A stretch of DNA of 64,000 nt from Sacculina carcini. Taxonomy: Eukaryota; Arthropoda; Thecostraca; Sacculinidae. This document shows, in pieces, positions 21,285 through 46,673 of this stretch (position 1 is its first letter; each line of letters opens with the position of its first letter). The stretch is taken from positions 4,192,448 to 4,256,447 of the forward strand of contig OU696589.1 in the NCBI GenBank assembly GCA_916048095.2, read 5' to 3'. A model generated the notes under the pieces. The model saw only the letters and a list, made by a program, of their open reading frames with translations. It was not told where the DNA came from and ran no database searches. Made by a program: the position numbers and the translations under genes.

Positions 21285-21658
21285 TGTATTTGAATGCAAG
21301 CACGAAAAATAAAAAAGAACAGGAAAGCACAATTCCACACGATCACACCGCAACACAATGCACTAAATACTACTCTCTCCACCGAACAACACTAAACCAC
21401 CGCACAAACACCACACTCTCACTTCACCAGTAACGCACTGCCCAACATGCACGAGCGACCGTTGACTCCGGGCGGATACCACCCGCGCATGCATGCACTC
21501 ATAGCTCGCGCTTATGCAACGCAGCTACCTCCGCGCGCGCATACAACAACGTACACAAAATCACACTCCCACGTACGCACACAAATACATATGCACGCAC
21601 ACACAATTCTATATAGTACAAAATATAATACAATGCAATATACAATAAACACAATACA
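21285..21658 (-). repeat. Element G 3' LTR (minus-strand sense)
   Basis: 374 bp, TG...CA ends, direct repeat of 23163-23536. The left flank ends in GATAT. Confidence 0.88.
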
Positions 21659-21681
21659 TATCCCCCTGATTCTAAGAATCA

Positions 21682-21838
21682 CTATGCCCGATTAGAATTA
21701 TACACAACATAATCATTGAACCGCGCCGGACGCTGACTCTGTCGCTGTGGTCGCGTCTGCTGCTGACCGCTACTCGCCGGATCAGTCCCGGCAGTCCTCT
21801 CACCGTACACCATGACGGCAGGCTCGCTCGATCATGGG
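21682..21838 (-). pseudogene. Element G pol C-terminal remnant
   Basis: Short minus-strand frame ending PARFNDYVVYNSN-stop (TAG at 21684-21682), typical of the basic tail at the end of a Gypsy polyprotein. It is fused to the protease/RT linker by a large internal deletion near 21838. The purine tract AATCAGGGGGATA lies between it and the 3' LTR. Confidence 0.5.
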
Positions 21839-22488
21839 CAGCGAGCAGGCCCATGTACACTCTCATCATAGGGAGTCAACCATTTGTTGCTGATCCACTC
21901 ATTGATCTCTCTGTCAAATGCCTCCTTGGCGTGTTGCCTCACATGATATTGTGAAGTTTCGTTTGTCAAACGATGAGGCTCGTGGTCGTCAAGCCACTTC
22001 CACTTGCAAGTCCACATGTTTTTAACTGCATCAAACCGTGCCTCATGCCCAGGTTTTGACTCAACAATATCACCAGCCGCAGCACAGTATGCGGCCTTGG
22101 CACTCACTTGAAAACGCACCCTACCGTCAGCACTTACACAAACACCCCCCAGCGCTGATATGGCGTTCATTCCCAGAATCGCATCATATCCCATCGGCTT
22201 GTGCTGCACAACGAGGGCTTTCACCACAACTGACTGTTCCTCGACACTCACACAACATTCACCAACACCCGAACAGTCAAAGCTCATGCCACCCAGAGTA
22301 TTCTCATGAGTCGTTACTGGTGTCCATGTTTTACAAACACCACTCCACACAATACAGCGAGAACAACCGGTATCAACAAGCACACAAGACTCACGTTGAA
22401 CAATAAACACAGTGACTGAAGGAAGCGCCTCATTGCTCACTGAGGAGAGGGTGCTGGCGCTGACGAGCCCTCTCCTTCCTCGTTTCCC
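21832..22488 (-). CDS. Element G aspartic protease (-1 frame of gag) with start of RT region
   Basis: A retropepsin-like protease reached by -1 frameshift at 22488-22482. Right after the shift it reads GKRGRRGLVSA; the active-site block is VLVDTGCSRC, and the flap/C-terminal region has YDAILGMNAI. A linker (CKWKWLDDHEP, SQYHVRQHAK) and the edge of the RT region (WLTPYDESVHGP) follow before the internal deletion. Element D encodes the same order. This protein would cleave Gag; with no RT downstream, G depends on another element for copying. Confidence 0.8.
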   Translation of the reverse strand, partial: GKRGRRGLVSASTLSSVSNEALPSVTVFIVQRESCVLVDTGCSRCIVWSGVCKTWTPVTTHENTLGGMSFDCSGVGECCVSVEEQSVVVKALVVQHKPMGYDAILGMNAISALGGVCVSADGRVRFQVSAKAAYCAAAGDIVESKPGHEARFDAVKNMWTCKWKWLDDHEPHRLTNETSQYHVRQHAKEAFDREINEWISNKWLTPYDESVHGPARCP

Positions 22489-23140
22489 TGACAGTCCTTC
22501 GCCATGTGACCCAATTTGGAACAATTATAACATCGTATCCGATATTTCCTTTTGGGGCACTCTCTACTCAAATGACCAGTCTGATTGCAAATATAGCATT
22601 TTCGGGGTGAAAGCGACCCGACATTGGCGGCTAGACAGTTTGATGGGTTTTTTGTCGTTTGCAACACCATGCGAGTTCTGCTCGTAATATCACTCAACGA
22701 CATAGACTCTGACACTGTGCTTGCACGAATACTGGTCGCCACGTGCTCGGGTAGGCCATTTACAAATGCACATATCAGCAGATTATCGGATACGCCACCG
22801 AATGAAACAGCGAGTTTTTTTTCAAATCTGCTAAATATACGTCAGGCGACTCACCTTCTTGCAGACGACGACTGGTGAACAGGGCGTATGCACGGAATCT
22901 GTCGACTCCAAACGCCGAGAACAAAGCGCTGCGAGTCCCTTTCGCACAACGGCGAAGTTCTTCCGGCAGTTGGGACCACACAACAAACGCGCCTTTTGAG
23001 AGACGTAGTGGCACTACGCTCATCACATCGACGCCTTTGAGCTGACACATCATCTCCGTGCGAGTCCACCATTCCACAATGCCACTCTGACAATCAAGTT
23101 CTGGTATAACGCGAGCGTCGAAACCACATGAAGACTCCAT
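22437..23140 (-). pseudogene. Element G gag with two zinc knuckles, one frameshift
   Basis: A structural protein that packages retroelement RNA. The ATG at 23140-23138 starts a capsid-like region (ARVIPELDCQSG, LSKGAFVVWSQLP, SPDVYLADLKK) homologous to element D Gag. A run of eight T on the plus strand (A8 in gag sense, 22815-22822) breaks the frame. It resumes as FVNGLP...ATSIRASTVS and carries two CCHC knuckles (CYICNQTGHLSREC and CYNCSKLGHMAKDC), ending at 22437. The homopolymer break may be a real indel or a sequencing error. Confidence 0.8.
22443..22488 (-). promoter_or_regulatory. Element G -1 frameshift signal: G_GGA_AAC plus stem-loop
   Basis: On the minus strand, gag codons CAG GGA AAC place the heptamer G_GGA_AAC at 22488-22482 in the zero frame. 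After a 5-nt spacer (GAGGA), AGGAGAGGG pairs perfectly with CCCTCTCCT around a 16-nt loop containing CGTCAGCGCC. The frame after a -1 slip is open into the protease. Element D has the same arrangement. Confidence 0.85.
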
Positions 23141-23150
23141 TTTTCGGAAG

Positions 23151-23162
23151 GGCCGGTTAGCT
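23151..23162 (-). other. Element G primer-binding site, complementary to the 5' end of tRNA-Ile
   Basis: On the minus strand AGCTAACCGGCC starts exactly after the 5' LTR. The plus strand reads GGCCGGTTAGCT, which equals nucleotides 1-12 of metazoan tRNA-Ile(AAT) as I know it. The site has no TGG start and is not a tRNA gene, because no tRNA body follows. Confidence 0.75.
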
Positions 23163-23536
23163 TGTATTTGAATGCAAGCACGAATAATAAAAAAGAACAG
23201 GAAAGCACAATTCCACACGATCACACCGCAACACAATGCACTAAATACTACTCTCTCCACCGAACAACACTAAACCACCGCACAGACACCACACTCTCAC
23301 TTCACCAGTAACGCACTGCCCAACATGCACGAGCGACCGTTGACTCCGGGCGGATACCACCCGCGCATGCATGCACTCATAGCTGGCGCTTATGCAACGC
23401 AGCTACCTCCGCGCGCGCATACAACAACGTACACAAAATCACACTCCCACGTACGCACACAAATACATATGCACGCACACACAATTATATATAGTACAAA
23501 ATATAATACAATGCAATATAAAATAAACACAATACA
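23163..23536 (-). repeat. Element G 5' LTR (minus-strand sense)
   Basis: 374 bp; the right flank GATAT matches the left flank of the other LTR. Confidence 0.88.
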
Positions 23537-26671: not shown

Positions 26672-26949
26672 TGTAATGATATTTTGCGCCCAATTTGGTT
26701 TACGCCAAGGGTGGCAACTAAGCCATACCTGGCAATATTGTCATTTTGTATCTCTGTGTTTATTGTGTCTCGTCAAAGGCTCTACGGTGATGTGGTGTTG
26801 TTGCTTATCAAGTAACTGTATTTTTGTATATGTCATCTGATAATGTGAATATTTGTAACATATTATTTTGGTGTTGTTTTCAGATGTACTTGGTTGTTTT
26901 AGTTGAATAAAACCTTAAGTAGAAGGTCGAGGGTTTTCGGAACGCGACA
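26672..26949 (+). repeat. Element I 5' LTR
   Basis: 278 bp. A TATA-like TATTATTTTG (26861-26870) lies about 37 bases upstream of 26898, where the self-priming model would place the RNA 5' end. Confidence 0.9.
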
Positions 26950-26950
26950 A

Positions 26951-26964
26951 TTTATTCAACTAAA
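26951..26964 (+). other. Element I self-complementary primer-binding site
   Basis: TTTATTCAACTAAA, one base after the LTR, pairs perfectly with TTTAGTTGAATAAA at 26898-26911 in the LTR. In Tf1 the first bases of the mRNA fold back on such a site, are cut and prime reverse transcription. Confidence 0.7.
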
Positions 26965-26968
26965 CATT

Positions 26969-28555
26969 ATGGATCATATACTAAAACCGACGGGTTTCGA
27001 AGGGCTCCCAGAAACGACTGCGGACGAATGGAATCATTGGGAACGAACGCTGATGAATTGCATAGAATCGTTAACAATATCAAATCCGAGCAATCCACCG
27101 AACAAACTCAGTGTGTTAACGAATTTGGTATCACCAAGGGTTTATGCACTGTTTTCTCAGTGCTCGACATTCGAAGGCGCGATCGAAATTCTTCGATCAG
27201 CGTACGTGAAACCAGCGAATAAGGTTTTCGCCCGCCATTTGCTGGCTACCAGAAAACAAAACGAGGGTGAATCGGTTGATAATTTTGTACAGAGTCTGAA
27301 AAAGCTAGTAAAAGATTGTTTCTTTGAAGCCGTTTCTGCATCAGAACATACAGAACAAGCTGTGAGGGACGCATTCATTACGGGTCTTGCTTCTACAAGT
27401 ATACGTCAAAGATTACTGGAGAAGTATGAACTCGCGCTAGATGATGCCGTAGCAACCGCCAGAAGCCTGGAGATGGCGCAGGAAAATGCCGCCGCTTATA
27501 ACAGTTATGCTGTTGTAGCTCAAGTGACGGTCGAGCAAGGCAAACAATCTGAAAGTCATTCTTCTATCGACATCAGCGAGCAATGTGCGGCGATTGGCCA
27601 CCAACCAGTGAAGCGACAAGCTAAATGCCAGTTCTGCGGACGGCTTAATCATCCTCGTTATGCCTGTCCAGCCAGAAACGTTGAATGCTACTTGTGTGGC
27701 AAAAGAGGACATTTTTCAACTGTATGTCGTTCAAATGTCAAAGAGAGACCATCGAATGCGAAATTGCAAGCTGCTTTCACTGCAGCTAGTGCTGTAATGC
27801 CTTCTCGAACGCAGTGTTCAGTGGTGAACGTCAAAATCGAAGACACTGATGTCAAAGCAATGGTAGACAGCGGCAGCACCCACAATTTTATCAGAGATGA
27901 TGTTACAAAAAGCCTAGGCATGAAAGTGGCACCATCATGCGAAGCGGTGACAATGGCTTCTTCGCGACTAAGATGTCACACAAAAGGGGAGTGCGTCTCA
28001 TCTGTATCAGTCAATGAAAGAATATATCAGGATGTGCGGTTTTCTGTGATGACGGATTTATGCACGCAAATGATTCTGGGGCAAGAGTTCTTGAGGCTTC
28101 ATGGCACTGTTGAGTTTGTCTTCAGCGGAGATTCACCGATTTTGCATGTATGTGGTGCTGCTCACATGAAGATCGAGCCACCACCACTTTTCACCAACTT
28201 ATCTGATGATTGCAAACCCATTGCAACCAGAGGCAGACAATACTCTGTTCCTGACCGGCAGTTTATTCGAGCAGAAGTGGAAAAGTTACTGAAAGAGGGT
28301 GTGATTGTGAAATCTACTTCGCCGTGGCGCGCACAAGCACTCGTTACTCACAATGAAAGACAGAAACGCCGCATGGTAATCGATTATTCCAGCACCATTA
28401 ATCGTTTCACTCACCTTGATGCGTTTCCGATACCCAAAATATCAGACATCATACGACAACTCTCCAAATTTAGAATTTTCAGCAAACTTGACCTCAAGTC
28501 AGCGTATCATCAATGCCCAATACGAGCAGATGAAAAAAAAGTTCACTGCATTTGA
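26969..28555 (+). pseudogene. Element I gag-protease-RT, 5' part
   Basis: Starts at the ATG at 26969. The Gag capsid-like region (about residues 10-190) is followed by two zinc knuckles (CQFCGRLNHPRYAC and CYLCGKRGHFSTVC, near 27628-27730). The aspartic protease active site is AMVDSGSTHNF (near 27860) with ILGQEFL. The RT begins with QFIRAEVEKLLKEG, VIDYSSTINRFT and KLDLKSAYHQCPI. The frame ends early at 28555 because an A8 run (28533-28540) has one base too many relative to the continuing RT in the next frame. Confidence 0.85.
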
Positions 28556-29969
28556 AGCAGGTGGCAGTCTCTATGAATTTACCCGGTTGCCTTTTGGCCT
28601 CACCAATTCGGTAGCCGTATTCCAGCGTATTATGCACAATATCATTACTGAGAACAACTTGAAAGGAGCATTCGTGTACATCGACGACATTGTTATTGGC
28701 GGTGCGACAAAAGAAGAACTTGAAAAGAATATGAATGCTTTCAATGATGTGGCTCGTCGACTCAATCTCCAGCTGAATGACGACAAATGTGAGTACGGAA
28801 TCACAAAGTTAAGGTTTCTCGGCCATATGCTCGACAATGGAACCATCAGTCCTGATCCAGAACGACTCACACCATTGAGAAATCTTCCCATCCCGTCGTG
28901 CAGTAAGTCGCTCAAGCGGGCATTGGGGCTGTTTTCCTACTATTCTCCATGGGTTGAAAATTTCTCAGATCGTATATCTCCACTCTTAAATGTAAAATCA
29001 TTCCCAATGGTGAGCCAGCTCAGAATGAGATTTCAGAACATCAAGGATGAGATATGCCGAGCATCGGTGGCAGCAATTGAGGACGATGTGCCATTCAGAG
29101 TGGAAACAGATGCATCTGCGATGGCGGTAGCTGCTTGTTTATCGCAGAATGGACGTCCGGTCGCGTATTTCTCCAGGACTCTGACTCAAGCTGAGCGATC
29201 GCATTCAGCAGTGGAACGTGAGGCTGCAGCTATTGTTGAATCAGTCCGTAAATGGCGTGATTTGCTGCTAGGTAGACATTTTACTATTGTTACGGATCAG
29301 CAAGCTGCCTCGTATATGTTCAACACCAGAGCGCCAAATCGAATAAAAAATGATAAGTTGTTGAGGTGGAGATTGGAACTGGCGAATTACTCATATGATA
29401 TAGTATACAGGCCAGGAACTCTGAACGCACCAGCTGATGCGCTGTCACGCTCATGTGCAGCAACATGCACAGTGTCCCTCAAAGATTTCCATATAGCGCT
29501 CTGTCATCCTGGCACAGCAAGGCTTTATCATTTTGTGCGTCAGAAGAACTTACCGTTTTCTATGGAAGATGTTAAGCGAGTGTGCGCCCAGTGCCACATT
29601 TGTGCAGAATTAAAACCAAGATTCTACAAGCCTCCTGCTGGCCGTCTTATCCAATCACGATCACCTTTTGAAAGACTGTCTATGGATTTTGTGGGACCAA
29701 AACCGTCAAGAAACAGAATGCGATATCTCCTTGTGATTGTAGATGAGTATTCACGCTATCCGTTTGTTTTTCCATGTGAGGACATGTCTACTAAGACGGT
29801 TATACATTGCCTTCAGAAACTGTTTGCGCTCTGCGGATGTCCTGAATCGATGCATAGCGATCGCGGGGCGCAATTCGTGTCATCGGAAGTAAAGGAATTT
29901 TTTGTGGAAGCATGGTATTATTATTACTCACTCTACACCGTATCACCCAAGTGGAAATGGACAATGTGA
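28541..29969 (+). pseudogene. Element I RT-RNase H-integrase, middle part
   Basis: Continues the RT with FTRLPFGLTNSVAVFQR and the catalytic YIDD (near 28678). RNase H has VETDASAMAVAACLS, a conserved Glu in AVEREAAAIV, and TDQQAASYMF. A linker with NAPADALSRS precedes the integrase HHCC region (HIALCHPGTARLYHFV, CAQCHIC), then MDFVGPKPS and HSDRGAQFVS. A T6 run (29898-29903) shifts the frame, and the translation that follows (YYYYSLYT) is out of frame and stops at 29969. Confidence 0.83.
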
Positions 29970-30624
29970 ACGCATCAATGGAATAGTATGGAAAGCGATT
30001 CAACTAGCTTTAAGATCTAGCGGACTTGATGACAGTCACTGGCAAGAAGTACTCGATATGGCCCTGCACGCCATTCGCTCGCTCCTCTGTACCTCTACCA
30101 ACGCGACTCCTCACGAAAGACTGTTTGCTTTTCAAAGAAGGTCAGGCCACGGCTATACCATACCAGAATGGCTGCAAGGAGGCCCGGCACTGCTTCGAAA
30201 GTTTGTACGCCAACGCAAGTCTGATCCACTTGTAGAACGGGTTGAGATCATTTCAGCAACTCCAAATTATGCCAGAGTTCGTTTTCCTGATGGTCGTCAA
30301 TCAACCGTGTCAACTGGAGATCTAGCTCCTTCACCAGATACCAGTGAGCGCTCTTTACTCTCGCACGAACACCCGGAAGCATCTGAGATTGATGTGTCTC
30401 TTCAACCGTCGGCTGGAAGTCCTTGCGAAGCTGAAGATCGGAATGCAACTATGCAGAGCGAAGATCCTGAAAGGACCAGGGGCAAGCGAAACATTCCTGA
30501 TCAAGCGACGGAAGTTCACCGCGAGGAACACCATGCAGACGTGGATCAGAGGGATGCTCTCTCATTTATTCCAGATGTTACAAGACGTGGTCGGGTCGTG
30601 ATCAGGAATCGGCGATATCAGTAA
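29904..30624 (+). pseudogene. Element I integrase, 3' part
   Basis: Carries the rest of the integrase core (THSTPYHPSGNGQCERING with the catalytic Glu in CERI) and the C-terminal region (ATPHERLFAFQRRSG, ALLRKFVRQRK, RVRFPDGRQSTVS), ending with TAA at 30622-30624. GCAGCGGAGAG before the 3' LTR is the polypurine tract. If the two homopolymer differences are sequencing errors, element I would be intact. Confidence 0.82.
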
Positions 30625-30641
30625 AATAATGCAGCGGAGAG

Positions 30642-30919
30642 TGTAATGATATTTTGCGCCCAATTTGGTTTACGCCAAGGGTGGCAACTAAGCCATACCT
30701 GGCAATATTGTCATTTTGTATCTCTGTGTTTATTGTGTCTCGTCAAAGGCTCTACGGTGATGTGGTGTTGTTGCTTATCAAGTAACTGTATTTTTGTATA
30801 TGTCATCTGATAATGTGAATATTTGTAACATATTATTTTGGTGTTGTTTTCAGATGTACTTGGTTGTTTTAGTTGAATAAAACCTTAAGTAGAAGGTCGA
30901 GGGTTTTCGGAACGCGACA
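30642..30919 (+). repeat. Element I 3' LTR
   Basis: 278 bp with no visible difference from the 5' LTR; followed by TTGGT. Confidence 0.9.
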
Positions 30920-31994: not shown

Positions 31995-32508
31995 TGTAAT
32001 TTCACAGTGTTCATCAGAGGCGCCAGAGAGAGCGATGCGCGAGATGTTCCGATATATTGAACGTTTGCTTACATGACATTCAAAGTTTGTATGTCTGTGT
32101 GTCTGTATACACGCGCAGCACTGGTCGCGTTGGCAGACGCCGTGTATGTGTGTGTGCAGTCATGTGTATGTGTGGGTGTGTATGTGTGCGCGTGTGCGTC
32201 TATCCTGTACTGTCTTGGTGGCGATGTAACTGGGGGAAGTATGGGCAGTGTAAAGGGGGTTCGATGACGCGTTGAGTTTCATGGGGAGTCGAGATCGAGC
32301 GTTCATGGTGTGAGTGTGAACGGTGCGCGGAAGCTTTGAGTGACAGTGTACGGCGGTGTGCAGAGTGCATTGTTCTTGGTGTTTTGTACTCGTTTCCGCG
32401 GTGTGAATATCGAGTGTTGCGTGTATTTACTCGGTGTCATATTGTGCGATTGTGTGATTGTGTTATATATATTTCATCGTCCATCATTTGTTCTCCAATA
32501 CAACTACA
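31995..32508 (+). repeat. Element D 5' LTR
   Basis: 514 bp ending CAACTACA, immediately followed by the unusual primer site. TG/GT-rich centre; no strong TATA box before the gag leader. Confidence 0.88.
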
Positions 32509-32521
32509 AGCTATTTCGGCC
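32509..32521 (+). other. Element D primer-binding site, complementary to the 5' end of tRNA-Phe
   Basis: AGCTATTTCGGC starts at the first internal base and is identical to that of element H. It is complementary to tRNA-Phe nucleotides 1-12. The gag ATG follows one base later (32522). Confidence 0.75.
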
Positions 32522-33277
32522 ATGTCGGTGCACGGTGATGAACAAGGGACCAGCATGGACGTGCGTCTAATTCCGGAGTTCAGTGGATCGGACGCGCAGA
32601 ATATCACAGAGTGGTTGGACAGATTGGAACTCGTGTGTGAGCTTCGAGGCGTGACTGACGTGGCAACCGTCATTGCTCTGCGTTTGGCCGGCGGTGCTTT
32701 TGCTGTGTACCAGCAGCTACCGATCTCTGACAGAAAATGCGTGCAGAAAGTGAAGTCGGCCCTGCAAGCGGCATTTGGAATTGATCCGTACACAGCCTAC
32801 GAGCGGTTTCATGCCCGCACTCTACACCCCAACGAGACGCCCGATGTATACCTGGCCGATCTCAAGAGATTGGCTTCAGCGTTTGGTGGAGTACCTGACA
32901 TGGCTCTCCGGTGTGCATTTGTCTCGGGTTTGCCTGCAGAGGTGCGCACAACGTTACGTGCGAATTCTCGACTTGAGTCGCTGGATCTGCCACAGCTGAC
33001 AGCTAGGGCTCGCATACTGCTCCAAGAGAACCAGCACAACGAAGTGTGTCTGGCCGCCAGGGAACCAACAGCAACTCATACAGCACAGCGAGAATTCAAG
33101 TGTTTCTGTTGCGGAGGCATTGGTCATATCCAGCGCCATTGTCCATCCAACCGCAACCGCAGCAAATTTGATCACGACAAGCACAACAAACAAAACGGCC
33201 GAGACAGTCAGGGCAAGTCGGGAAACGACAGCGGAGAGGCGTCGTCAGCGCCGGACTCCTCTCCGAGACAATACTAG
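32522..33277 (+). CDS. Element D Gag
   Basis: A Gag-type structural protein of 251 residues starting at the ATG that directly follows the primer site. Capsid-like part: VRLIPEFSGSDAQNITEW, LAGGAFAVYQQLP, TPDVYLADLKRLA, AFVSGLPAEVRTTL. One CCHC knuckle (CFCCGGIGHIQRHC) near residue 195, then a basic and Ser-rich tail ending TAG... in the zero frame at 33277. The last 58 nt overlap the protease frame. Intact, and homologous to Gag of element G, which has two knuckles. Confidence 0.85.
   Translation: MSVHGDEQGTSMDVRLIPEFSGSDAQNITEWLDRLELVCELRGVTDVATVIALRLAGGAFAVYQQLPISDRKCVQKVKSALQAAFGIDPYTAYERFHARTLHPNETPDVYLADLKRLASAFGGVPDMALRCAFVSGLPAEVRTTLRANSRLESLDLPQLTARARILLQENQHNEVCLAAREPTATHTAQREFKCFCCGGIGHIQRHCPSNRNRSKFDHDKHNKQNGRDSQGKSGNDSGEASSAPDSSPRQY
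33220..33270 (+). promoter_or_regulatory. Element D -1 frameshift signal: G_GGA_AAC plus stem-loop
   Basis: Gag codons TCG GGA AAC put the heptamer G_GGA_AAC at 33220-33226 in frame. After the 5-nt spacer GACAG, CGGAGAGG pairs perfectly with CCTCTCCG around an 18-nt loop containing CGTCAGCGCC. A -1 slip leads into the open protease frame. Compared with element G the first stem pair changes from C-G to A-T, a compensatory change. Confidence 0.87.
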
Positions 33278-33580
33278 CCAGGACGCTACCGACGGTGAAT
33301 GCGACCATCGACGGTGTTGAGCGACGTGCGCTCGTCGACACGGGCTGCAGTCAAAGCATAGCACATGTGTCCTGCTGCAGAAAATGGGCGCGCAAAAAGG
33401 TGAGTGTCGTAACCATGAGCGGTGAGAGATTCTCGACGTTGGGAACGGGCACAGTGACACTCAGTATTGGTGATGATGTTCTACCGTGCCATGAAGTTGT
33501 TGTTTCACAGACAAGGCCACTGGGGTTCGATTTCATCTTGGGAATGAATGCAATCACGTCGTTGAAGGGTGTGTGTATAT
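33223..33580 (+). pseudogene. Element D aspartic protease, split by element E
   Basis: The -1 frame after the slippery site (GKRQRRGVVSAGLL), then VNATIDGVERRALVDTGCSQS with the catalytic DTG, and FDFILGMNAITSLKGVC. At 33581 the LTR of element E interrupts it; the frame resumes at 38152 after E and its target duplication. Homologous to the element G protease. Confidence 0.85.
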
Positions 33581-33848
33581 TGTGGGAGTGCGCAGCGTGA
33601 AGAAAATTACCTCAACAGATGTCGCTAGCAGTCGGGCATCGAGAGTGGGTCGTCTGCTTAGCGCTAGCAGTCGGGCATCGAGAGTGGGTCGTCTGCTGAT
33701 CCTACTGAGCCGTTTAAGTGAACGGCAGTGAAGTTTTGAAGCCCGCGTGTTTCGTGTGTGTTGCTCTTGCGAGTCGCTACTTTCATTTGTGTTACAGTGT
33801 TGTTTGTGTGTTATGGTTATCTTGTTAATACAGTCTCAGACTTGAACA
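33581..33848 (+). repeat. Element E 5' LTR with internal 39-bp duplication
   Basis: CGCTAGCAGTCGGGCATC starts at 33623 and again at 33662. The duplication is present in both LTRs, so it predates this insertion. Confidence 0.9.
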
Positions 33849-36800
33849 TGGCGCAGCCGACAGGATCCAGTGATACTCATTCAATGAGTGATTCTTCATT
33901 TTCATGGAGCGGTAAAATTTCTGTGCCAGCAAAACTGGATCTATCTATTGACCGAAGCGAAGCGTTCACGTTGTGGCGAGAGCGCTGGACCGACTACGTG
34001 CTACTTTCCGGTCTGAAAAGTCAGAGTCGGGAAGTTCAGATGGCAGTATTTCGGTCGTGCATCAGCGACGAAAGTCTGAGAATTGTAAAAAGCCTCGATA
34101 TCGCCGAAACAGACAAGAACAATGTGGACGTAATCTTGCGACACTTGGATGTTTATGCCAAAGGGCAAGTAAACGAGGTGATCGAGCGCAAAAACTTCAA
34201 CTCACGTGTGCAAAGAAATGGCGAGTGCTTTGACGATTTTCTCATCAGCCTGCGCGAATTGGGCATGTCGTGTAATTTTTGTGACAAATGTCAAGATAGT
34301 CTCGTCCGCGATCGCATCGTGGTGTGCATGCGAGACACAGCCACCATTAAGAAACTGTGTAGCGTGAAAAGCTTGGACCTTCCGACGGCTATCGATATTT
34401 GTAGAGCAGAAGAAGCCGCCAGTCGCGATACGGAGAAAATAGAGACCGATAGAGTCGGCAGAGTGCACGGTGTTCGCAATGGCTTCAGTAAGCATGCCAG
34501 CCGAGCACCTTCGAGTTCTGAACCAGAGTGTCCCCGGTGCGGAAGACACCACGCGCGCAAAGGCAAGTGCGCAGCACATGACCAGAAGTGCAGAAGATGC
34601 GGCAAATTAGGTCATTTTGCCACGAAATGCAAGACATCCCTCGATGACAGAGATCGCGCCGAGAACATAACCGTTGCCAACAAACAGTGGAAAAACAGGT
34701 ATGTGTCAGCAGCGATTGTTTCAAGCGTCATGTCAGTCCGAGCTCCCCGTGTGGATGTTGTCGTCGATGGACATGTGACGGTGTCTGCGTTGCCGGACAC
34801 AGGAGCCGACATTACAGTGGCTGGGGTGGATGTGCTGGAAAAATTTGAGCACATCAACAACCTGCTGCCCAGCACGGATCGACCGTATTCAGCCGATGGC
34901 ACCAGAATGTGTCCAGTCGGTATATGTCCAACGACCGTTTCCCTCGGCGAGTTGTCAGTCGAAGTGGACGTGCATGTACTCAAAGGAGTATCCGGAATGC
35001 TTCTGTCGTGGAACGTGTGTCGAGAATTGGGCATCATTTCGAGGGACTATCCGAATCAACTGAACCCGTCCGCGGTGAACATCGTCGCAGAGGCCAACGA
35101 TCGAAAGCGTATATCGTCAGCTGAAGATGTCATCAGCGAATTTCGCGACGTCTTCAGTGAAGAGATTAAATGCTTGCCGGGTGAATCGTTCAAGATCAGA
35201 GTCGCCGATGGTAGCAGACCTCACAGCGTCACAGCGCCGCGTCGGGTGCCACTCCCGCTACGTGATGCCTTGAAAGAGGAACTGCACTCACTGGAGTCAC
35301 AAGGTATCATCACACGTGTAACAGAACCGACGGAATGGTGTTCCCCGATCGTGGTGACGCCGAAGAAAGGTGGGAAAATTCGTCTGTGTGTCGATCTCAC
35401 CAAACTCAACCGATGCATTCAGAGAGAATTGTTTCAGTCCAGCACACCAGCGGAGTGTGTAGCATCTATGGTAACGGCTGAAGCAAAATATTTTGCAGTG
35501 TTTGACGCAGCTAAAGGCTATCATCAGTGCCCGCTCAGTCAGGAAAGCCAACCGTTGACCACCTTCATCACTCCGTTTGGTCGATACATGTTCCGCCGTG
35601 CGCCGTACGGCATCTCGTCGATATCTGACCACTACAATCGTCGGATGAACGAGGCTCTTGAGGGACTGACAGGAGTCCAAAGACTAGTAGATGACGTCAT
35701 CATTTATGGCAGCTCAAAAGAGGAGCTTCAAGAACGTGCCACCAATTTCTTGGTCAGATGCCGTCAGCGGAAAATAACTTTGAATCGCAACAAAGTTCAG
35801 TATATGCTGCCACGGTGTAAATTCGCAGGATTCGAAGTCAGCGCAAGCGGGTATTCTATCGACACTGCTCTGAACGAGGCTATCTCGAAATTTCCGGTTC
35901 CGACAAACTTGACGAATCTGCGCTCATTCTTTGGTCTGTGCAACCAAATCGGTTCATTTTCGCCGGATCTGTCAAAATGGTTGGTTCCTCTTCGTGGATT
36001 GTTGAGCACGAAAAACACGTTTTTGTGGAAAGACCGGCATACTGCAGCATTTCATGAAGCACGAAAAGCTTTGTCATCACAAGATGTGCTGAAATATTTC
36101 GACGCTAAAGCTCCGACATACCTGCATACAGATGCTAGTCGTCTGAACGGGCTTGGTTTCATGCTTCAACAAAAACAGCCGAATGGCGAAATGGGCGTCG
36201 TGCAATGTGGATCGCGCTTTCTGAACGACGCAGAAAGCCGTTATGCCGCGATCGAATTGGAGCTGCTGGCCATAGTGTGGGCATTCAAAAAATGTCGCCC
36301 GTTTCTTTCCGGTCTTGAACACTTCGAGGTTTTGACAGATCACCGGCCATTAGTACCAATCCTCAACTCAAAATCGCTCGATGACCTGGCTAATCCGCGC
36401 TACAGCGTTTGCGGTTTAAGCTGGAAGAGATTGGACCATTCTCCGCTCGATGGGTCCCGGGGAAGCAGCACACTGCCGCTGACGCGCTTTCGCGGCATCC
36501 CGTTTCGCCCGCAACGGAGAAAGAAGAGGCCGATGACGGCACGACCATCGCTGCGTGTGTCACTACGGATCCAGAGATCCCCGACCTCAATCTACAGCAG
36601 CTTAAGGCGGAATCTGCAGCTGACCTTGAGCTACAGATGCTCCAGCAAACCATCATGGACGGATTTCCGGATCGCAAAGGCGATATGAACAACAAGCTTC
36701 AACGCTACTGGCCTGTACACGAACGACTGTCGGTGGAAGACGATCTGGTGTTCCTTGGTCGCCGGCTGGTCATCCCGAAGTCCATGAGGTCACAAATATT

Positions 36801-37926
36801 GCGTGACCTGCACGCGAGTCATGCGGGCAAAGAAAAAACCAAGCAGCGAGCTCGGCAGGCCGTTTATTGGCCCGGTATTGATGTCGACATCGACAACATC
36901 ACCAAACATTGTGGTAAATGCCAACAATACCTACCATCACAGGCTCCAGAAACCATGACGCGTCATGCAAAGGCTACTCGACCGTTCGAATACGTCTCCG
37001 TCGACATTGCTGAACACGGAGGACACAAGTTCATCGTGCTGGTGGACCATCTCTCAGGGTGGCAATTCGTCAACGACCTGGGATCATCGGCGGTCACAAG
37101 ACGTCTACTTGATACTTTCCGTACCATCTTCTGCATGGTAGGCGTGCCTGTGATAATCTACTCCGACGGAGGACCGCAGTTCACATCGGGAGAATTCGCT
37201 CGATTTGCGGAGCTATGGCGTTTCCAACACGTGCGCTCATCACCCCATCACCCGCAATCGAACGGAAGAGCCGAGGCCGCCGTCAAATCGGCCAAAGCGC
37301 TGATTAAAAAGTGCTGGGATGGGGGGAGAGGAGGCCTTGACGCTGACAGCTGGGCCAAAGGCATACTTCAGCAGAGGAACACGCCTGGACCAGACAGCAG
37401 ATCGCCGGCGGAGATTCTCTACGGTCGTCCGGTGAGAGACATGGTGCCTGCACACAGACGACAGTTCAGCTCAGAGTGGCAGAAGTCCAGCGAAGAAGCG
37501 GAGCGCGTGATGGACACTTACGAGTGCAAATCCGAGGAGAGGTACAACCAGGGCACCAGAGACTTAACCGAGCTAAGCCCGGGAAACAACGTCGCGGTCC
37601 AGTGTCACGCGACCAAGGAATGGACCAGGTATGGAGTGATCGTCGAGAAATTGCCGCATCGTCGATACCTTGTCAAGATGCTCAGCGGACGAGTGGTAGC
37701 TCGCAACCGACGACACATTCGCCTGAGATTCGGCCACGCTCTGAGGCCAGACGTCCAGCCAACAAGTGCATCATCCGAAGGAGACGCAGCACAGAGGAGC
37801 GAGGAGCCATGGAGATCAACTCGCTCTCGTCGTCGTCCCCAAAGGCTCATCGAAGTCATGAAAATGACTAGGGGGGCGTGTGGGAGTGCGCAGCGTGAAG
37901 AAAATTACCTCAACAGATGTCGCTAG
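33848..37926 (+). pseudogene. Element E gag-pol polyprotein, one frameshift
   Basis: The ATG uses the last base of the LTR and the first two of the primer site, so residues 2-5 (AQPT) are written by the primer site. Order: Gag with CNFCDKC, then two zinc knuckles (CPRCGRHHARKGKC, CRRCGKLGHFATKC, near 34529-34630); protease (ALPDTGADITVAG, near 34791); RT (VDLTKLNRCI, FDAAKGYHQCPL, APYGISSISDHYNRRM, catalytic LVDD near 35685); RNase H (TDASRLNGLGFML, AIELELLAIVWAF, TDHRPLVPIL). A missing base near 36401 shifts the frame. Then KQHTAADALSRHP, integrase HHCC (HASHAGKEKTKQRARQAVYW, CGKCQQY), SVDIAEHGG, YSDGGPQFTS, GRAEAAVKS. There is no stop before the 3' LTR; translation would end at 37926. Confidence 0.88.
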
Positions 37927-38146
37927 CAGTCGGGCATCGAGAGTGGGTCGTCTGCTTAGCGCTAGCAGTCGGGCATCGAGAGTGGGTCGTCTGCTGATCC
38001 TACTGAGCCGTTTAAGTGAACGGCAGTGAAGTTTTGAAGCCCGCGTGTTTCGTGTGTGTTGCTCTTGCGAGTCGCTACTTTCATTTGTGTTACAGTGTTG
38101 TTTGTGTGTTATGGTTATCTTGTTAATACAGTCTCAGACTTGAACA
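37879..38146 (+). repeat. Element E 3' LTR
   Basis: 268 bp, no visible difference from the 5' LTR. The purine tract TAGGGGGGCG precedes it. Confidence 0.9.
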
Positions 38147-39035
38147 TATATCTACTGACAGTAATATTACGTTCAATCCATGTGCGAATGATTCTGTGTT
38201 ACGTGGTAAACTGGTGCACACTCACACTGCGTTGGGTTCGTCTGAGGATAAAAAGCATGTGGATGACGACATACACGTCGATGAAAAGGATTTTTCACTA
38301 TCATTCACCGACAGGGGTGGTTTCTGGACAGTTCGCTGGAAGTGGGCCAACGGTGTAGAGCCTGGGATGTGACACAATCAGATATCAGAATACCACGTGA
38401 AAAAGTCTAATCGACCTCAGTACGTGACGGAATTGCGTGATTGGATTGCCAGAGGTTGGCTGGTGGAGTATGATGAATCCAGGTTCGGTCCGGTAAAAGG
38501 CCTCATACCGTTGATGGCTGTCGAGCAGCCAAATAAAAACAAGGTCCGGCCGGTACTCGACTACAGGGAAGTGAACAAAAGCATTGATAGCCACACAGCG
38601 GATGCTGACGCGTGCGGCCAAAAGCTGCGTGAATGGCGTCGTATGGGCGTCAATGTGGGTATATTGGACCTTGAGAAAGCTTACTTGCAGATTCGAGTTG
38701 ACCAGTCACTGTGGCCGTATCAAACTGTTGTGATCGACGGAACTCGCTTTTGCCTCACAAGACTTGGATTTGGTTTGAATGTGGCGCCAATGGTTATGAA
38801 GGCAGTGGTGGACGCAACACTGAAGATGGACCGAGAGATAGAAAGTGTGGCATCAGCCTATGTGGATGACATTTTGTTCAAGGCCGATATTGTCTCACCG
38901 GAACGCATCAAATGCCACTTTGCACGATATGGGTTGAGCAGCAAGGCTCCCGAAGTCGTCGCAGATGGGTCGAGAGTATTGGGTCTGCGTATTTGGGAGG
39001 AGCGTGGACAACAATTTACCGGAATTGCCAGCTAA
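38147..39035 (+). pseudogene. Element D protease end and reverse transcriptase
   Basis: Resumes the D frame after E. A linker with TVRWKWANGVEP (compare CKWKWLDDHEP in G) is followed by an in-frame TGA at 38370-38372, then SEYHVKKSNRPQ and YDESRFGPVKG. The RT has VRPVLDYREVNKSIDSHT, GILDLEKAYLQIRVD, CLTRLGFGLNVAPM and the catalytic AYVDDI near 38858-38875. Near 39010 the frame shifts by +1 and this reading ends at 39035. Confidence 0.83.
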
Positions 39036-39678
39036 GCTCACAAAAAGGTCATTGTTTTCGTATTGTGGGGCACTCATTGCTCATTATCCGTCGTGTGGTT
39101 GGTTGAGAGTGGCTTCAGCATTTGTCAAGAGAAAGGCGAACGCTGTGTCCTGTGGCTGGGACGACGAAATCAACGATGATCATCTCAAGAGTGTCGTAGC
39201 TGATTTGGACAGAAAAGTCAACCGAGAAGATCCATCACATGGGCGTTGGGACGTGAGTGAGATTACTGCTCGTCTTTGGGTAGACGCAAGCTCGCTGGCA
39301 ATTGGAGCATGTCTTGAGTCAAACGGAGACGTGATTGAAGATGCCGCATGGCTAAGACGAGATGACGCCACGCATATTAATATGGCAGAACTAGATGCGG
39401 TGGTCAAGGGCATCAATTTGGCCATTGTGTGGGAAATGAAAAGTATCGAATTGATGACGGACTCCGCAGTGGTGCATAAATGGGTGAAAGATGCGTTGTC
39501 TGGAAAATCACGCGTCAAAACAAAGGCCGCGGGGGAAATGCTCATTCGCCGCAGAATCAGCCTCATTGCCGATCTTGCACATGAATATGACATGTCAATT
39601 GAAGTGAAACTCGTTAAGAGAACTGCTCTGCAGAGAACAAAGCAGATGTGCTCACTCGGGTGCCACGGACCTGGTTGA
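39010..39678 (+). pseudogene. Element D RNase H
   Basis: A connection region (LFSYCGALIAHYPSCGWLR) leads into an RNase H domain with LWVDASSLAIGACLE, INMAELDAVVKGINL and LMTDSAVVHKWV, giving the Asp, Glu and Asp of the active site. The frame breaks near 39635; the next frame continues with NKADVLTRVP. Confidence 0.8.
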
Positions 39679-40748
39679 AGGATAATGAATTGCGTGACGC
39701 GCCGATTTGTGCCGCTGGAATAGATAGAAATCAACTGATCAGTAATATCCACCACGATTCTGGTCACCCAGGCGTCAGGAAGTCACTGTTTTTTGCTCGA
39801 AAAGCCGACCCAGGTGTCACCCGACGCGAGGTATATGCAGTAGTGCGAAAATGCGATGTGTGCAACTCCGTAGATCCCGCCCCAGTGAAGTGGAGGAATG
39901 GAAACTTGAGCGTCAGAGATGTGTGGGACAGGATTGCCATTGATTTCACGCACTACGGTGGTTGTCATTACCTCTCAATCATCGATTGTGGACCGTCTCG
40001 GTTCACTCTTTGGAAATGTGTTCGTGTGCAGACAAGTGCTGTTGTGGTGGCATTACTTGAATCGCTGTTTCTTGAGAGGTCTGCCCCGCGTGAAATTTTG
40101 CTCGATAACGACACTGCGTTCAGAAGCAGAGAGTTTCGGCAATTCGCGGCCAGTTGGGGGGTGAGAATCCACTACCGATGTGCTCATGCACCATCCGGCA
40201 ACGGTATAGTGGAGAGATGTCATCGTTCGGTTAAAACAATCGCTGCTCGCAAGCAATGCACCATTCAGGAAGCTGTATATTGGTTCAACGTCCGGCCGCA
40301 AAACAATGATGAATCAACATCTCCATTCAACATGCTGTATCAGTACACTGCGCGAGTAAAAGGACTCAGTCATGATTTATATGTTGCCCGCCAGGACGTC
40401 GAAGAGTGCCCGTTTGTTCAAGGTGACTTGGTGTGGGCAAAGCCACCAAACAGTCGCTGTTACAGCACATATTTACCCGGCGTAGTGACTCGTGTTGTGT
40501 CTAATCAATCAGTGGAGGTTGACGGTGTGCCGCGACATGTTCGGGACCTGCGTATGCGGCATACTGAGCCCGAAGTCGCTCAGCAACCGATTTCAGACGA
40601 TGAAGAGCTGGTCTTGAGTTTTGGGCGAGCCCCGAGGGCCAACGTGGCATCGCACGACGTCGCACCCGCAGAATCGCCTCGGAGGTCTAATCGACGGCGT
40701 GTAGCCCCTCGGTGTTTTTGTTGCGATGAGCAACAGGAAGGAGTGTAA
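39636..40748 (+). CDS. Element D integrase and C-terminus
   Basis: Integrase with the zinc-binding domain (IHHDSGHPGVRKSLFF, CDVCNS), the catalytic core (IAIDFTHYGG, LLDNDTAFRS, NGIVERCHRSVK: Asp, Asp, Glu all present) and a C-terminal region (LVWAKPPNSRCYSTYLPGVV, RHVRDLRMR). It ends with RSNRRRVAPRCF and a TAA at 40746-40748 that overlaps the first bases of the 3' LTR. ACAGGAAGGAG before the LTR is the polypurine tract. This part is open, but upstream breaks mean it is not made from this copy as part of a normal polyprotein. Confidence 0.8.
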   Translation, partial: NKADVLTRVPRTWLKDNELRDAPICAAGIDRNQLISNIHHDSGHPGVRKSLFFARKADPGVTRREVYAVVRKCDVCNSVDPAPVKWRNGNLSVRDVWDRIAIDFTHYGGCHYLSIIDCGPSRFTLWKCVRVQTSAVVVALLESLFLERSAPREILLDNDTAFRSREFRQFAASWGVRIHYRCAHAPSGNGIVERCHRSVKTIAARKQCTIQEAVYWFNVRPQNNDESTSPFNMLYQYTARVKGLSHDLYVARQDVEECPFVQGDLVWAKPPNSRCYSTYLPGVVTRVVSNQSVEVDGVPRHVRDLRMRHTEPEVAQQPISDDEELVLSFGRAPRANVASHDVAPAESPRRSNRRRVAPRCFCCDEQQEGV

Positions 40749-41257
40749 TTTCACAGTGTTCATCCGAGGCGCCAGAGAGAGCGATGCGCGAGATGTTCCG
40801 ATATATTGAACATTTGCTTACATGACATTCAACGTTTGTATGTCTGTGTGTCTGTATACACGCGCAGCACTGGTCGCGTTGGCAGACGCCGTGTATGTGT
40901 GTGTGCAGTCATGTGTATGTGTGGATGTGTATGTGTGCGCGTGTGCGTCTATCCTGTACTGTCTTGGTGGCGATGTAACTGGGGGAAGTATGGGCAGTGT
41001 AAAGGGGGTTCGATGACGCGTTGAGTTTCATGGGGAGTCGAGATCGAGCGTTCATGGTGTGGGTGTGAACGATGCGCGGAAGCTTTGAGTGACAGTGTAC
41101 GGCGGTGTGCAGAATGCATTGTTCTTGGTATTTTGTACTCGTTTCCGCGGTGTGAATATCGAGTGTTGCGTGTATTTACTCGGTGTCATATTGTGCGATT
41201 GTGTGATTGTGTTATATATATTTCATCGTCCATCATTTGTTCTCCAATACAACTACA
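40744..41257 (+). repeat. Element D 3' LTR
   Basis: 514 bp with about eight substitutions relative to the 5' LTR; followed by the duplicated target CTTTC. Confidence 0.88.
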
Positions 41258-41742: not shown

Positions 41743-41955
41743 AACTGTGTGTGTGTGTGTGTGGGTGGGTGGGTGTGTCTGTGTGCGTGTGTATGTGCAA
41801 TCTTCCAGCCATACTCACCTAATTGTGTTTATGTAAAAGGGAATTTACGGGCGTTAGTGGGGATTTAGCTCGAAAATGTAATGCACACTTGAGATAAATG
41901 AACAGCTATAAGTGTTGTATAATTGAAAAAGAGTTCCACTTTTATTCTCCAACTA
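41743..41955. other. Microsatellite and spacer, no gene
   Basis: TG/GGGT repeats (41743-41793) and about 160 bp of AT-rich sequence leading into the tandem array. Confidence 0.7.
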
Positions 41956-43770
41956 GCATTAAAACCCGCCCGTTGTGCGGAACAATTCATAAAAATATTG
42001 CAAATTAAAAATAAATAAGGAAAACTCATGAAAACCTTAATAAATTAAAAAGTCTAAATTTCACTATTTTTAATTTTATTTTGACAAAATATTTTCACTC
42101 AGCCCGCCTCATATTTAAACCCGCCCGACGTGAGGAAAAATTCAGAACTCGAACACCATCCGTTCTGGTTGTTGAAGTCAAATCCATTAGTTTTGTATAT
42201 GAATTCATTCTACACGGTGAAATTGAACGTTTTATTGCTGCCCGCGGGACATTTTTATTTCATAAAAATGAGCCATCGTTTGTGTTTGAAGCCCCTGATC
42301 ATTGAACCAGCGAACCATGAACCAGCGCAATTATATCACCTCATATTCAAGCATACATACACAGACAGACAGATAATTTATTCTTTATGTATATATATAG
42401 CATTAAAACCGCATTAAAACCCACCCGTTGTGCGGAACAATTAATAAAAATATTGCAAATTAAAAATAAATAAGGCAAACTCATGAAGACCTTAATCAAT
42501 TAAAAAGTCTAAATTTCATTATTTTTAATTATATTTTGACAAAATATTTTCACTTAACCCGCCTCATATTTAAACCCGCCCGACGTGAGGAATAATTCAG
42601 AACTCGAACACCATCCGTTCTGGTTCTTGAAGTCAAATCCATTAGTTTTGTATATGAATTCATTCTATACGGTGAAATTGAACGTTTTATTGCTGCCCGC
42701 GGGACATTTTTATTTCATAAAAATGAGCCATCGCTTCGTTTGCGTTTCAAGCCCCTGATCATTGAAGCAGCGAACCATGAACCAGCGCAATTATGTCACC
42801 TCATATTCAAGCATACATACACAGACAGACAGATAATCTCTTCTTTATGTATATACTAGCATTAAAACCCGCCCGTTGTGCGGAAGAATTCATAAAAATA
42901 TTGCAAATTAAAAATAAATAAGGCAAACTCATAAAAACCTTAATCAATTAAAAAGTCTAAATTTCATTATTTTTAATTTACATTTTGACAAAATATTTTC
43001 ACTCAGCCCGCCTCATATTTAAACCCGGCCGACGTGCGGAATAATTCAGAACTCGAACACCATCCGTTCTGGTTCTTGAAGTCAAATCCATTAGTTTTGT
43101 ATATGAATTCATTCTACACGGTGAAATTGAACGTTTTATTGCTGCCCGCGGGACATTTTTATTTCATAAAAATGAGCCATCGCTTCGTTTGCGTTTGAAG
43201 CCCCTGATCATTGAACCAGCGAACCATGAACCAGCGCAATTATGTCACCTCATATTCAAGCATACATACACAGACAGACAGATAATTTATTCTTTATGTA
43301 TATATATATAGCATTAAAACCGCATTAAAACCCGCCCGTTGTGCGGAACAATTCATAAAAATATTGCAAATTAAAAATAAATAAGGCAAACTCATGAAGA
43401 CCTTAATCAATTAAAAACTCTAAATTTCATTATTTTTAATTTTATTTTGACAAAATATTTTCACTCAACCCGCCTCATATTTAAACCCGCCCGACGTGAG
43501 GAAAAATTCAGAACTCGAACACCATCCGTTCTGGTTCTTGAAGTCAAATCCATTAGTTTTTTATATGAATTCATTCTATACGGTGAAATTGAACGTTTTA
43601 TTGCTGCCCGCGGGACATTTTTATTTCATAAAAATGAGCCATCGCTTCGTTTGCGTTTGAAGCCCCTGATAATTGAACCAGCGAACCATGAGCCAGCGCA
43701 ATTATGTCACCTCATATTCAAGCATACATACACAGACAGACAGATAATTTCTTCTTTATGTATATATATA
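41956..43770 (+). repeat. Four head-to-tail ~450-bp units, short members of an AT-rich element family
   Basis: Units start at 41956, 42411, 42859 and 43322 (next at 43771), spacing 448-463 bp. Each starts GCATTAAAACC(C)GCCCG and shows TTTTGACAAAATATTTTCAC and CTGCCCGCGGGACATTTT. Each ends in a CATACATACACAGACAGACAG microsatellite plus TTATGTATATATATAG, where the next unit begins. The first 300 bp match the start of the two long units that follow. The frames inside are composition artefacts. Tandem insertion, variable middle and a 3' microsatellite resemble Helentron/DINE-type non-autonomous elements, but no protein or diagnostic terminus proves that. Confidence 0.8.
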
Positions 43771-45690
43771 GCATTAAAACCCGCCAGTTGTGCGGAGCAA
43801 TTCATAACATGAAATTCATATTCAATTCATAAAAAATATGGAAAAATAAAAATGAAATAGGGTACACTCATAAAAATATTAATCAATTGAAAATTATAAG
43901 TTTAATTATTTTTATTTCGACACAATATTTCCCCTCAGTCCGCCTGAGTCATTTTTAAACCCGCCCGTCGTGCTGAATAATTCAGAACTCGAACACGATC
44001 CGTTCTGCATCTTGAAGTCAAATCCATTGGTTTTGTGTATGGATTAATTCTACAGGGTAAATTGAACGTTCTATTGTCTATAATTGCTGCCCGCGGAACA
44101 TTTTTATTTTAACATTTTAAAAAAAAAAAAACTTTTTTTAAATGAACCATTTGAAAAAATGATCTAAAAACACTTTTTTAAACCCACCCGTCGTGCGGAA
44201 CAATTCATACAATAAAATTCATATCAAATCCATAAAATATAATGAATACAAATTGAAAAGCAAAAAATGTAACCTATAAATATCTTAACCAATAGAAAAG
44301 TCTAAATGTGAATATTTTTGTTCTTATTTTGACAAATATTATCCCTCAACCCGCCTGATATATAAATCTGCCCGTCGTGTGGTATAATTCAGAACACAAA
44401 CACGAAACAAACAATGAAAGATGATGAAATCTTTTCATCAGACTGTTTCCAAACTATATTTATTACTTAACATCATTCCCCAATATCATTTGCTTAAGTA
44501 CTATTTCACTTTTACCGCTATAATATTTATTGTTAAAATTTATATATTTTCCGATATCATTAAAACCCAATATAACCTGAGTCAAACCTACCCAACCCAA
44601 CCCAACCATTCAATCTTGACCGCTCTCAGCCTAGTCTGAGGTGATTTAACTTATTAGTTTGTGATCACAAAATATACTGATGCGATCATAATTTGTAATC
44701 AGAAGACTGAGATTATCTACCCCAGGGGTCCTAAACACGCGGCCCACCAATACTTTTCTCTCAACCCGCCAATATAGTATCGGGACCAAACTGTAAGGTA
44801 GCTAAATTCACATTTGTTGCATAATGCGATATAATTTTACACCATTATCATATTATCTCATAATTCCCGGTTAATGCTTCCACTAATGCATCATATTCAT
44901 ACAGTTGTTATTTTTTGGATTACATCGATAATGCAGCCCTTGATATTACAGCCGATATTATATTATGCAATCTATATTCTGCTACGTATTATTCCTAATA
45001 CATATATCATCAGATCGCAAAATATATTTAAAGGTTCACATAATTCTCCAAAATCATTTGCTTAAGAGCTATTCTACTTTTATCGCTAGAATATTTACTG
45101 CTAGCAAAATATCATATACCTCGCTATCATTTAAACCCACTCTTTATAGATACATTTAATTCGCCCGTCGTGCGGAACAGTTCATAAAATATAATTAATA
45201 TTCAATTCATAAAAAAATTAGTGCAAATTGAAAAAGAAAAACAAACCCACAGGAAAGTTATAGCTAATATAAAAGTCTAAATGTGAAATTTATGTTTCAA
45301 TTTAGAAAACATGTTTTTCCACAACACTATCAAAACAATGCAACCTTCTGTCATCTCTATAATTCCAGGTTAATGCTTCCGCTAAAACAGCATAAGTTGG
45401 CATTACATGATATTGCAACCCATATCCTTATGCAACTTATGCTTATGCAACTTGAAATTAAACCAATTAAATTACACAGTTAAATTCAGTAGTTTACTTT
45501 GTTCCCAATAGCATTTTACCCGCCCGTCGTGCGGAACGTTATTGAGGACAATAAAGCCTTTATATTCAGTAGAGTGTAGCATTAATTAAACTGTACGCAA
45601 TAAAACCACACCATCCATGCTTGGAGATAATATGATGCATTCTTAATTGTGATTGGGCTTCAGTGAAATTTAATCGGTGTATATTCATGT

Positions 45691-46447
45691 GTAATCGCAA
45701 GTGCGCATAATAGCTGTCAAATTGGCAACATGATAATTTGACTTTACACCGCCGTAACTTCCTTCAGATACACTTTGTAAAATTACAAATTATACCGTAT
45801 TGTAGAAAACAAGATTTCTAGCACGATGGTATAATTTATTTTTATGTTTAGCAAATAGTTACTGAGAAATAGTAGAAAAATTAATTAATTTTATTCGGCC
45901 GGTGTTCAAGTGAAATTTTGGATGTATTTGAGAATTTTGCCAATTTTACACGTTTTTTGTATCATTTGTGGTTATAAATTATAGCTTATCTTGTAGAACA
46001 CAAAATTCTCTACACAGTAGTATATTCCTGAGTAATCGCAAGTGCGTAAATTGTGATTGGACTTGAGTGAAATTAAATCAGTGTATATTCATGTGTAATC
46101 GCAAGTACGCATAATAGCTGTCAAATTGGCAACATGACATTTTGACTTTACACCGCCGTATCTTCCTTCAGATACACCTTGGAAAATTAAGAATTATACT
46201 GTATTGTAGAAAACAACATTTCTAGCACGATGGTATAATTAATTTTAAGGTATGACAAACAGTTCCTGAGAAATGGGTAGAAAAATGTATAAATTTTAGT
46301 CACCCGGTGTTCAAGTGTAATTTTGGATGCATTTGAGAATTTTGCCAATTTTACACGTTTTTTGTATCATTTGTGGGTATAAATTATACCTTTTCTTGTA
46401 GAACACAAAATTCTCTACACAGTAGTATATTCCTGTGTAATCGCAAG
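45691..46447 (+). repeat. 342-bp tandem repeats in composite unit 1
   Basis: GTAATCGCAAGTGCG(C/T) starts at 45691, 46032, 46095 and 46437: spacings 341, 63 and 342. The 63-bp step is a short insert also found in unit 2 (55714-55778). The last repeat is split by element F and continues at 50982. Confidence 0.85.
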
Positions 46448-46646: not shown

Positions 46647-46673
46647 TCTCCCCCTCGCGTTTGGAACCAAACG

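Follow-up and report, generated by a model that had tools for sequence, protein, structure and literature searches.

The 64,000-nt stretch of Sacculina carcini DNA analysed here (the window) raises the question of which RNA primes reverse transcription in LTR retrotransposons whose internal region opens with the complement of a tRNA 5′ end. Six LTR elements were delimited in the window. With sites beginning AGCT in three of them (D, H, and G), sites beginning TGG in two (E and the element at 46448–50981), and a self-complementary site in one (F), three kinds of site occur among the six. An earlier note on this DNA had read the 12 nt at the LTR edges of D, H, and G as sites that may be primed by a very short 5′ fragment of tRNA-Phe or tRNA-Ile.

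Three LTR elements carry the complement of a tRNA 5′ end at the LTR edge

Element D (31995–41257, + strand) is a full-length element bounded by a TG..CA LTR pair and the target-site duplication (TSD) CTTTC, and is interrupted by the nested element E. Its 514-bp 5′ LTR (31995–32508) ends in ..AACTACA and is followed directly by the 12-mer AGCTATTTCGGC (32509–32520, + strand). Gag (32522–33277; recognised by its open frame and position, with no Pfam match) has its ATG one base (C) past the 12-mer. The remaining features, all on the + strand, are a protease (33172–33580; PF13975, 2.9e-7 on 33172–33597), the frame of which is cut by the E insertion; a reverse transcriptase (RT; 38373–39035; PF00078, 5.4e-9); DUF7047 (5.9e-24) together with an RNase H of the RVT_3 type (3.5e-5; both by Pfam, 38938–39678); an integrase (39618–40748; PF00665, 4.3e-10); a putative polypurine tract read from the sequence, acaggaaggag (40733–40743); and the 3′ LTR (40744–41257). 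D has the gene content of an LTR retrotransposon, with gag (by position), protease, RT, RNase H, and integrase all present, and its integrase lies after RNase H, not before RT as in the Ty1/copia order.

Element H (15395–16979, + strand; LTRs 15395–15834 and 16540–16979) is short, with no coding region recognised by eye, and carries the same 12-mer at its LTR edge (15835–15846, + strand). Its two LTRs are near-identical. In place of a short TSD, part of a non-LTR element, 0.79 kb long, stands in one copy on either side of H (window 14606–15394 and 16984–17772), and TCAA follows the 3′ LTR of H. Coding relatives may mobilise short elements such as H in trans. Element G (21285–23536, − strand; 5′ LTR 23163–23536, 3′ LTR 21285–21658) is an internally deleted relative, has a TG..CA LTR pair and the TSD GATAT, and carries AGCTAACCGGCC at 23151–23162 (− strand, read 23162–23151).

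The site of D and H is complementary to nt 1–12 of the animal tRNA-Phe sequence (5′ end GCCGAAAUAGCU), and the site of G is complementary to nt 1–12 of the host tRNA-Ile(AAT). The motifs and coordinates given in the earlier note hold for all three elements, as does its observation that the site begins exactly at the LTR edge, except that the D site ends at 32520 and not at 32521. All three sites begin with AGCT; they lack the TGG that a conventional site shows at the LTR edge as part of a complement to the tRNA CCA end. Nor are they complementary to an anticodon stem or loop region: the match is to nt 1–12 of the host gene for Ile and of the animal tRNA-Phe sequence for Phe.

Two of the remaining elements carry the conventional-looking TGGCGCAGCCGACA, namely E (33581–38146, + strand, nested in D, TSD TATAT), at 33849, and the element at 46448–50981 (− strand, TSD GCAAG), from 50782 downwards. 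Long direct-repeat arrays lie on both sides of the latter (window 41935–46475 and 50964–56475), with a start-to-start spacing of mostly ~340–460 bp. In element F (26672–30919, + strand, TSD TTGGT), positions 26951–26964 are complementary over 14 nt to positions 26898–26911 of the element's LTR, an arrangement suggestive of Tf1-like self-priming in this genome.

The presence of such a neighbour favours the explanation that the RNA of D, G, and H likewise folds back and, in the manner of Tf1, brings its 5′ end into pairing with the site. However, the longest stretch of LTR complementary to the element's own site measures 5 nt in D, 5 nt in G, and 4 nt in H, and across 48 sites (two of them in tRNA genes) the longest complement within 600 nt upstream is 4–9 nt, and at most 6 nt in 44 of the 48. 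With F as the positive control and a complement of at least 10 nt between LTR and site as the threshold, self-priming was rejected for D, G, and H, and we consider it very improbable as an account of these sites.

Genome-wide counts far exceed those of reversed patterns

In the window, AGCTATTTCGGC with up to one mismatch has three matches, against a shuffle mean of 0.19, and none of 100 shuffles reaches three. The third match (24589, − strand, one mismatch) lies inside a coding stretch that resembles an integrase gene (putative). AGCTAACCGGCC with up to one mismatch has a single match, and 3 of 100 shuffles contain at least one; the G site alone is weak evidence within the window and could be chance there.

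Across the 264-Mb genome, with the reversed pattern as control, AGCTATTTCGGC has 2021 matches (1005 + 1016 on the two strands) vs 5 reversed (2 + 3), and AGCTAACCGGCC has 402 (205 + 197) vs 22 reversed (10 + 12); ten of the 402 are identical full-length, intact tRNA-Ile(AAT) genes. Chance resemblance, for which the shuffles leave room in the case of G, is rejected by these counts, by the window shuffles for AGCTATTTCGGC, and by the motif-blind sample described below, and its probability is negligible. The corresponding 12-mer of tRNA-Tyr, in the same register, is not enriched genome-wide, with 6 matches (4 + 2) vs 8 in the control (2 + 6). tRNA-Tyr genes are present in the genome, and three of the six matches are Tyr gene 5′ ends by coordinates. 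For want of an excess, tRNA-Tyr was rejected as a third tRNA with the same TAGCU end. The pattern TACAAGCTA gave 3502 matches vs 1732 in the control, and no spectrum of other tRNAs emerged.

Host tRNA genes and tRNA-Phe-like pieces

The complement of the Ile site, GGCCGGTTAGCT, forms nt 1–12 of the tRNA-Ile gene in ten identical full copies. A difference between host tRNA 5′ ends and the sites had been named as a test of the 5′-end match; for tRNA-Ile, the two agree. The gene starts with GGCCGGTTAGCTCAG and is uninterrupted past nt 12; an intron at that point, which would free a 12-nt exon, was rejected for tRNA-Ile, as the genes contain no intron at 12/13.

tRNA-Phe is indispensable in any animal. 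Assembly-wide pattern and sequence searches revealed no recognisable tRNA-Phe gene: GCCGAAATAGCTCAG has 0 matches in the genome; GCCGAAATAGCTNAR has 2, neither of which is a tRNA; and a D-arm/anticodon pattern retrieves tRNA-Tyr and five other places but no recognisable Phe gene. The tRNA-Phe genes may be unassembled, masked as N, or unusual in sequence. With the animal tRNA-Phe sequence as query, the genome matches solely nt 38–72 (L021) and nt 38–67 (L022). The claimed match to tRNA nt 1–12 is borne out by ten host genes for Ile, and for Phe it rests on the animal sequence together with the tRNA-Phe-like piece of L021.

Both pieces are in sense orientation and start at nt 38 (L021 1501–1535, − strand; L022 1501–1530, − strand). 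In L021, the piece lies between inverted arms akin to H-type interiors, continues into an H-like interior past TTTCGGC, and has a T in place of A58; in L022, it is fused inside an LTR. A58 is methylated in many tRNAs, and in tRNA-Phe the base next to nt 38 (nt 37) is heavily modified. The two loci look like possible products of an RT that copied mature tRNA-Phe by template switching and stopped at the modified nt 37.

These loci bear on the explanation that the 5′ piece annealing through nt 1–12 is longer (a 5′ half, or the entire tRNA) and that a nuclease of the element or the host shortens it to nt 12, by nicking or trimming, only once it is in the particle. Since L021 and L022 resemble cDNA of tRNA-Phe downstream of nt 37, tRNA-Phe past nt 12 may be near the RT. 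However, they are only two loci and are silent on what primes, and at the LTR edge the pairing can reach no further than nt 12, since the complement of nt 13 gives way to CA. We regard a longer piece as possible but rather unlikely; it overlaps with the use of a short fragment proposed below (same site, same tRNA end), so that the probabilities of the two are not exclusive.

The site is conserved across a clade of relatives

As a sample blind to the motif, we hand-picked 20 RT matches with 53–99% identity to D from 150 scored of 2741 candidates, and read 321 nt located ~1.2–1.5 kb upstream of each RT. The exact site is present in 17 of the 20, each time after ACA (16 Phe, 1 Ile), and the one-base variant AGCTATTTCGTC is present in two, likewise after ACA. 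The remaining member (L058) has no site in the 321 nt read, and a pattern listing places AGCTATTTCGTC 914 nt upstream of its RT. Conservation in other copies had been set beforehand as a test, and the 12 nt are kept in nearly all sampled members and at the LTR edges of many families. The variant AGCTATTTCGTC, which has one mismatch to tRNA-Phe, has 37 matches genome-wide vs 21 in the control, six of the 37 sitting on one 0.7-Mb contig (C32). At the LTR edge (L057, L059), it appears to mark a low-copy subfamily of the D clade that would use either tRNA-Phe with one mismatch or another primer.

The edges of the site are sharp. The fetched loci and the window contain 68 exact sites, 59 after removal of 9 duplicates; at least 37 of the 59 are in loci chosen by the motif, for which the flanks alone count as evidence, and 15 are in loci chosen by RT. 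ACA precedes 42 of 45 distinct Phe sites (the others having ACT, CTA, and TTC) and 12 of 14 Ile sites, the remaining two being tRNA genes. The base after the block is mixed in the elements (Phe: C17, A15, T9, G4; Ile: A4, C4, T3, G1). With one member taken from each of 21 rough clusters, some of which mix unlike sequences, the information content drops from 2.0 bits in the block's final column to 0.35 one column later, and stays at or below 0.64 before the ACA; over the 36 columns tallied, conservation is limited to the block and the preceding ACA. Eight elements combine a TG..CA LTR pair, a TSD-like repeat, and the site: D, G, and six motif-chosen loci (L037, L039, L041, L049, L053, and L054), in a TSD search that let the ends shift by 8 nt and in which the repeats of L053 (TATAT) and L049 (AAAAAT) are simple sequence.

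Some loci contain more than one copy of the site. L024 has a partial tandem copy near 1504 (AGCTATTTC followed by AGCTATTTCGGC), and in L046 (~8740) and L047 (~8190) the 3′ LTR is succeeded by another interior with the site AGCAATTTCGGC, an arrangement resembling tandem elements with a common LTR.

Given its place next to the LTR end and, for several families, immediately ahead of the gag ATG, the site might instead function in packaging or in translation start, be recognised by integrase as an end, or be targeted by silencing 5′ tRNA fragments, with priming located elsewhere. Against such a role, the two versions fit two different tRNAs in one register, and the conservation ends with the block and its ACA. 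We consider another role improbable, and return to the clade that carries the putative primer-binding site.

In the fetched loci, coding sequence adjoining the sites is homologous to D in at least one of gag, protease, RT, RNase H, and integrase, and the RTs of the carriers are mostly 40–66% identical to that of D outside D's own subfamily. As judged from sequence homology, the coding carriers examined form one clade. Several site-bearing loci (H-type and others) gave no coding match. Ty3-like pol pieces in eight loci (L036, L037, L040, L042, L043, L048, L049, and L052) lie upstream, on the opposite strand, or well beyond the site, and are taken as neighbours of the site-bearing elements. By Pfam, D has DUF7047 and the RVT_3-type RNase H, while E, F, and the element at 46448–50981 have RT_RNaseH domains. 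A profile of the clade compared with solved structures gave weak retroviral RTs as best matches. Database searches found 184 relatives of the D RT, 120 of which were listed. Few of the matches listed are named, and those named are from Trichuris, Trichinella, Amphibalanus (barnacle), Chionoecetes (snow crab), and two labelled as bacterial MAGs. No relatives were found in viral and genome contig collections.

The RT tree, built with few outgroups and with a very long F branch that makes the placement of F uninformative, places the Ile user L019 as sister to the Phe user L045 (support 95/93), and puts two further Ile users, L039 and L014, in other parts of the tree, within a fan of low resolution. 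This arrangement supports the switch between tRNA-Phe and tRNA-Ile that the earlier note had suggested among relatives. Given these separate positions of the Ile users, the primer has probably changed between Phe and Ile two or more times.

A proposed primer from the 5′ end of a mature tRNA

We propose, with good confidence, that one LTR-retrotransposon clade (RT with DUF7047) uses the 12 nt as its primer-binding site, and that the primer is the 5′ end of a mature tRNA, released as a fragment with its 3′ OH at or near U12. Most families would use tRNA-Phe, and others tRNA-Ile(AAT). The proposal draws on features read from sequence: the position of the site, the exact match, the sharp edges, the two versions in one register, the conservation across the sampled clade, and the lack of self-complementarity. 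Against it stand the shortness of a 12-nt primer, the failure of the assembly searches to reveal a recognisable tRNA-Phe gene, a primer 3′ end that the shared nt 8–12 leave unfixed, and the low-copy AGCTATTTCGTC subfamily, which would mismatch tRNA-Phe at one base.

In the proposed mechanism, tRNA nt 1–12 would anneal to the 12 nt with which the internal region opens, and synthesis of minus-strand DNA would proceed from the 3′ OH of the fragment, at or close to U12, into U5 and R. We infer both the existence of the fragment and its priming role, as well as the cut of the tRNA, which would follow nt 12 (or 10); a cDNA primed in this way would begin with GCCGAAAUAGCU or GGCCGGUUAGCU. The outer edge of the site, at tRNA nt 1, suggests the 5′ end of a mature tRNA, and the CA that ends the LTR defines the inner edge. 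tRNA-Phe and tRNA-Ile have UAGCU at nt 8–12 in common, so the sequence does not fix the primer 3′ end: it may be nt 12, or it may be nt 10 if integrase trims off the 2 nt AG. For the nuclease, copia may offer a precedent in the RNase P cut within tRNA-iMet. As to how the site is passed on, the accessible text of PMC7472051 describes Ty1 and Ty3 as inheriting it from their own RNA, and HIV and MLV as copying it from the primer on one strand.

Comparison with known priming systems

The accessible text of Kojima 2024 (PMC10886601) describes tRNA 3′ ends as primers in most elements, the anticodon loop as used in most fungal Helenus and some Copia elements, and 3′-truncated tRNA primers in plants as confined to Copia lineages. 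In its accessible part, the plant survey of Neumann 2019 (PMC6317226) distinguishes three primer types (an entire tRNA, a half tRNA generated by a cut in its anticodon stem, and a self-primer), with sites sought through tRNA 3′ ends and self-complements. A site for a tRNA 5′ end is not mentioned in the accessible text of PMC4600332, PMC7773854, and PMC7472051, and no description of one was found in the literature searched, which was mainly open-access; titles and abstract openings are likewise silent. This points to a primer type that is new relative to the literature searched, which is not proof of novelty.

The clade probably represents a fourth class of LTR-retroelement primer, consisting of the first 10–12 nt of a mature tRNA that is cut within the D arm. 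Such primers would be used clade-wide, with at least two exchanges between Phe and Ile. If true, a D-arm-cut primer would add a fourth type to the three above, and there would have to be an activity, of the host or the element, that releases very short tRNA 5′ pieces whose 3′ ends are usable. A pipeline built only on tRNA 3′ ends and self-complements would miss such a class, and with RT relatives in whipworms, Trichinella, a barnacle, and the snow crab, the same question can be asked elsewhere.

Among known systems, half-tRNA priming in copia and similar elements uses the 5′ part of the tRNA. The likeness of the D clade to this priming in copia, Ty5, Osser, and Bianca would lie in a primer derived from a tRNA cut inside the mature molecule and not from its CCA end. 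In the accessible text of Neumann 2019 and Kojima 2024, however, copia-type sites pair with the anticodon region (of tRNA-Met, or of tRNA-Ile in Bianca) and are found in Ty1/copia only, whereas the D clade appears to use nt 1–12 of tRNA-Phe or tRNA-Ile and has its integrase after RNase H. Ty3/Gypsy elements with TGG sites, such as E and the element at 46448–50981, resemble D in their LTRs, 5-bp TSD, and protease–RT–RNase H–integrase order. They differ in a site that starts with TGG and pairs with a tRNA 3′ end (a putative pairing for these two elements) and in the Pfam RT_RNaseH domains that both possess and that were not seen in D. Self-priming of the Tf1/Sushi type shares with the proposed mechanism a short primer cut from an RNA and a site at the LTR edge; its primer is the element's own 5′ RNA, the complement of which is present in F but not in D, G, and H.
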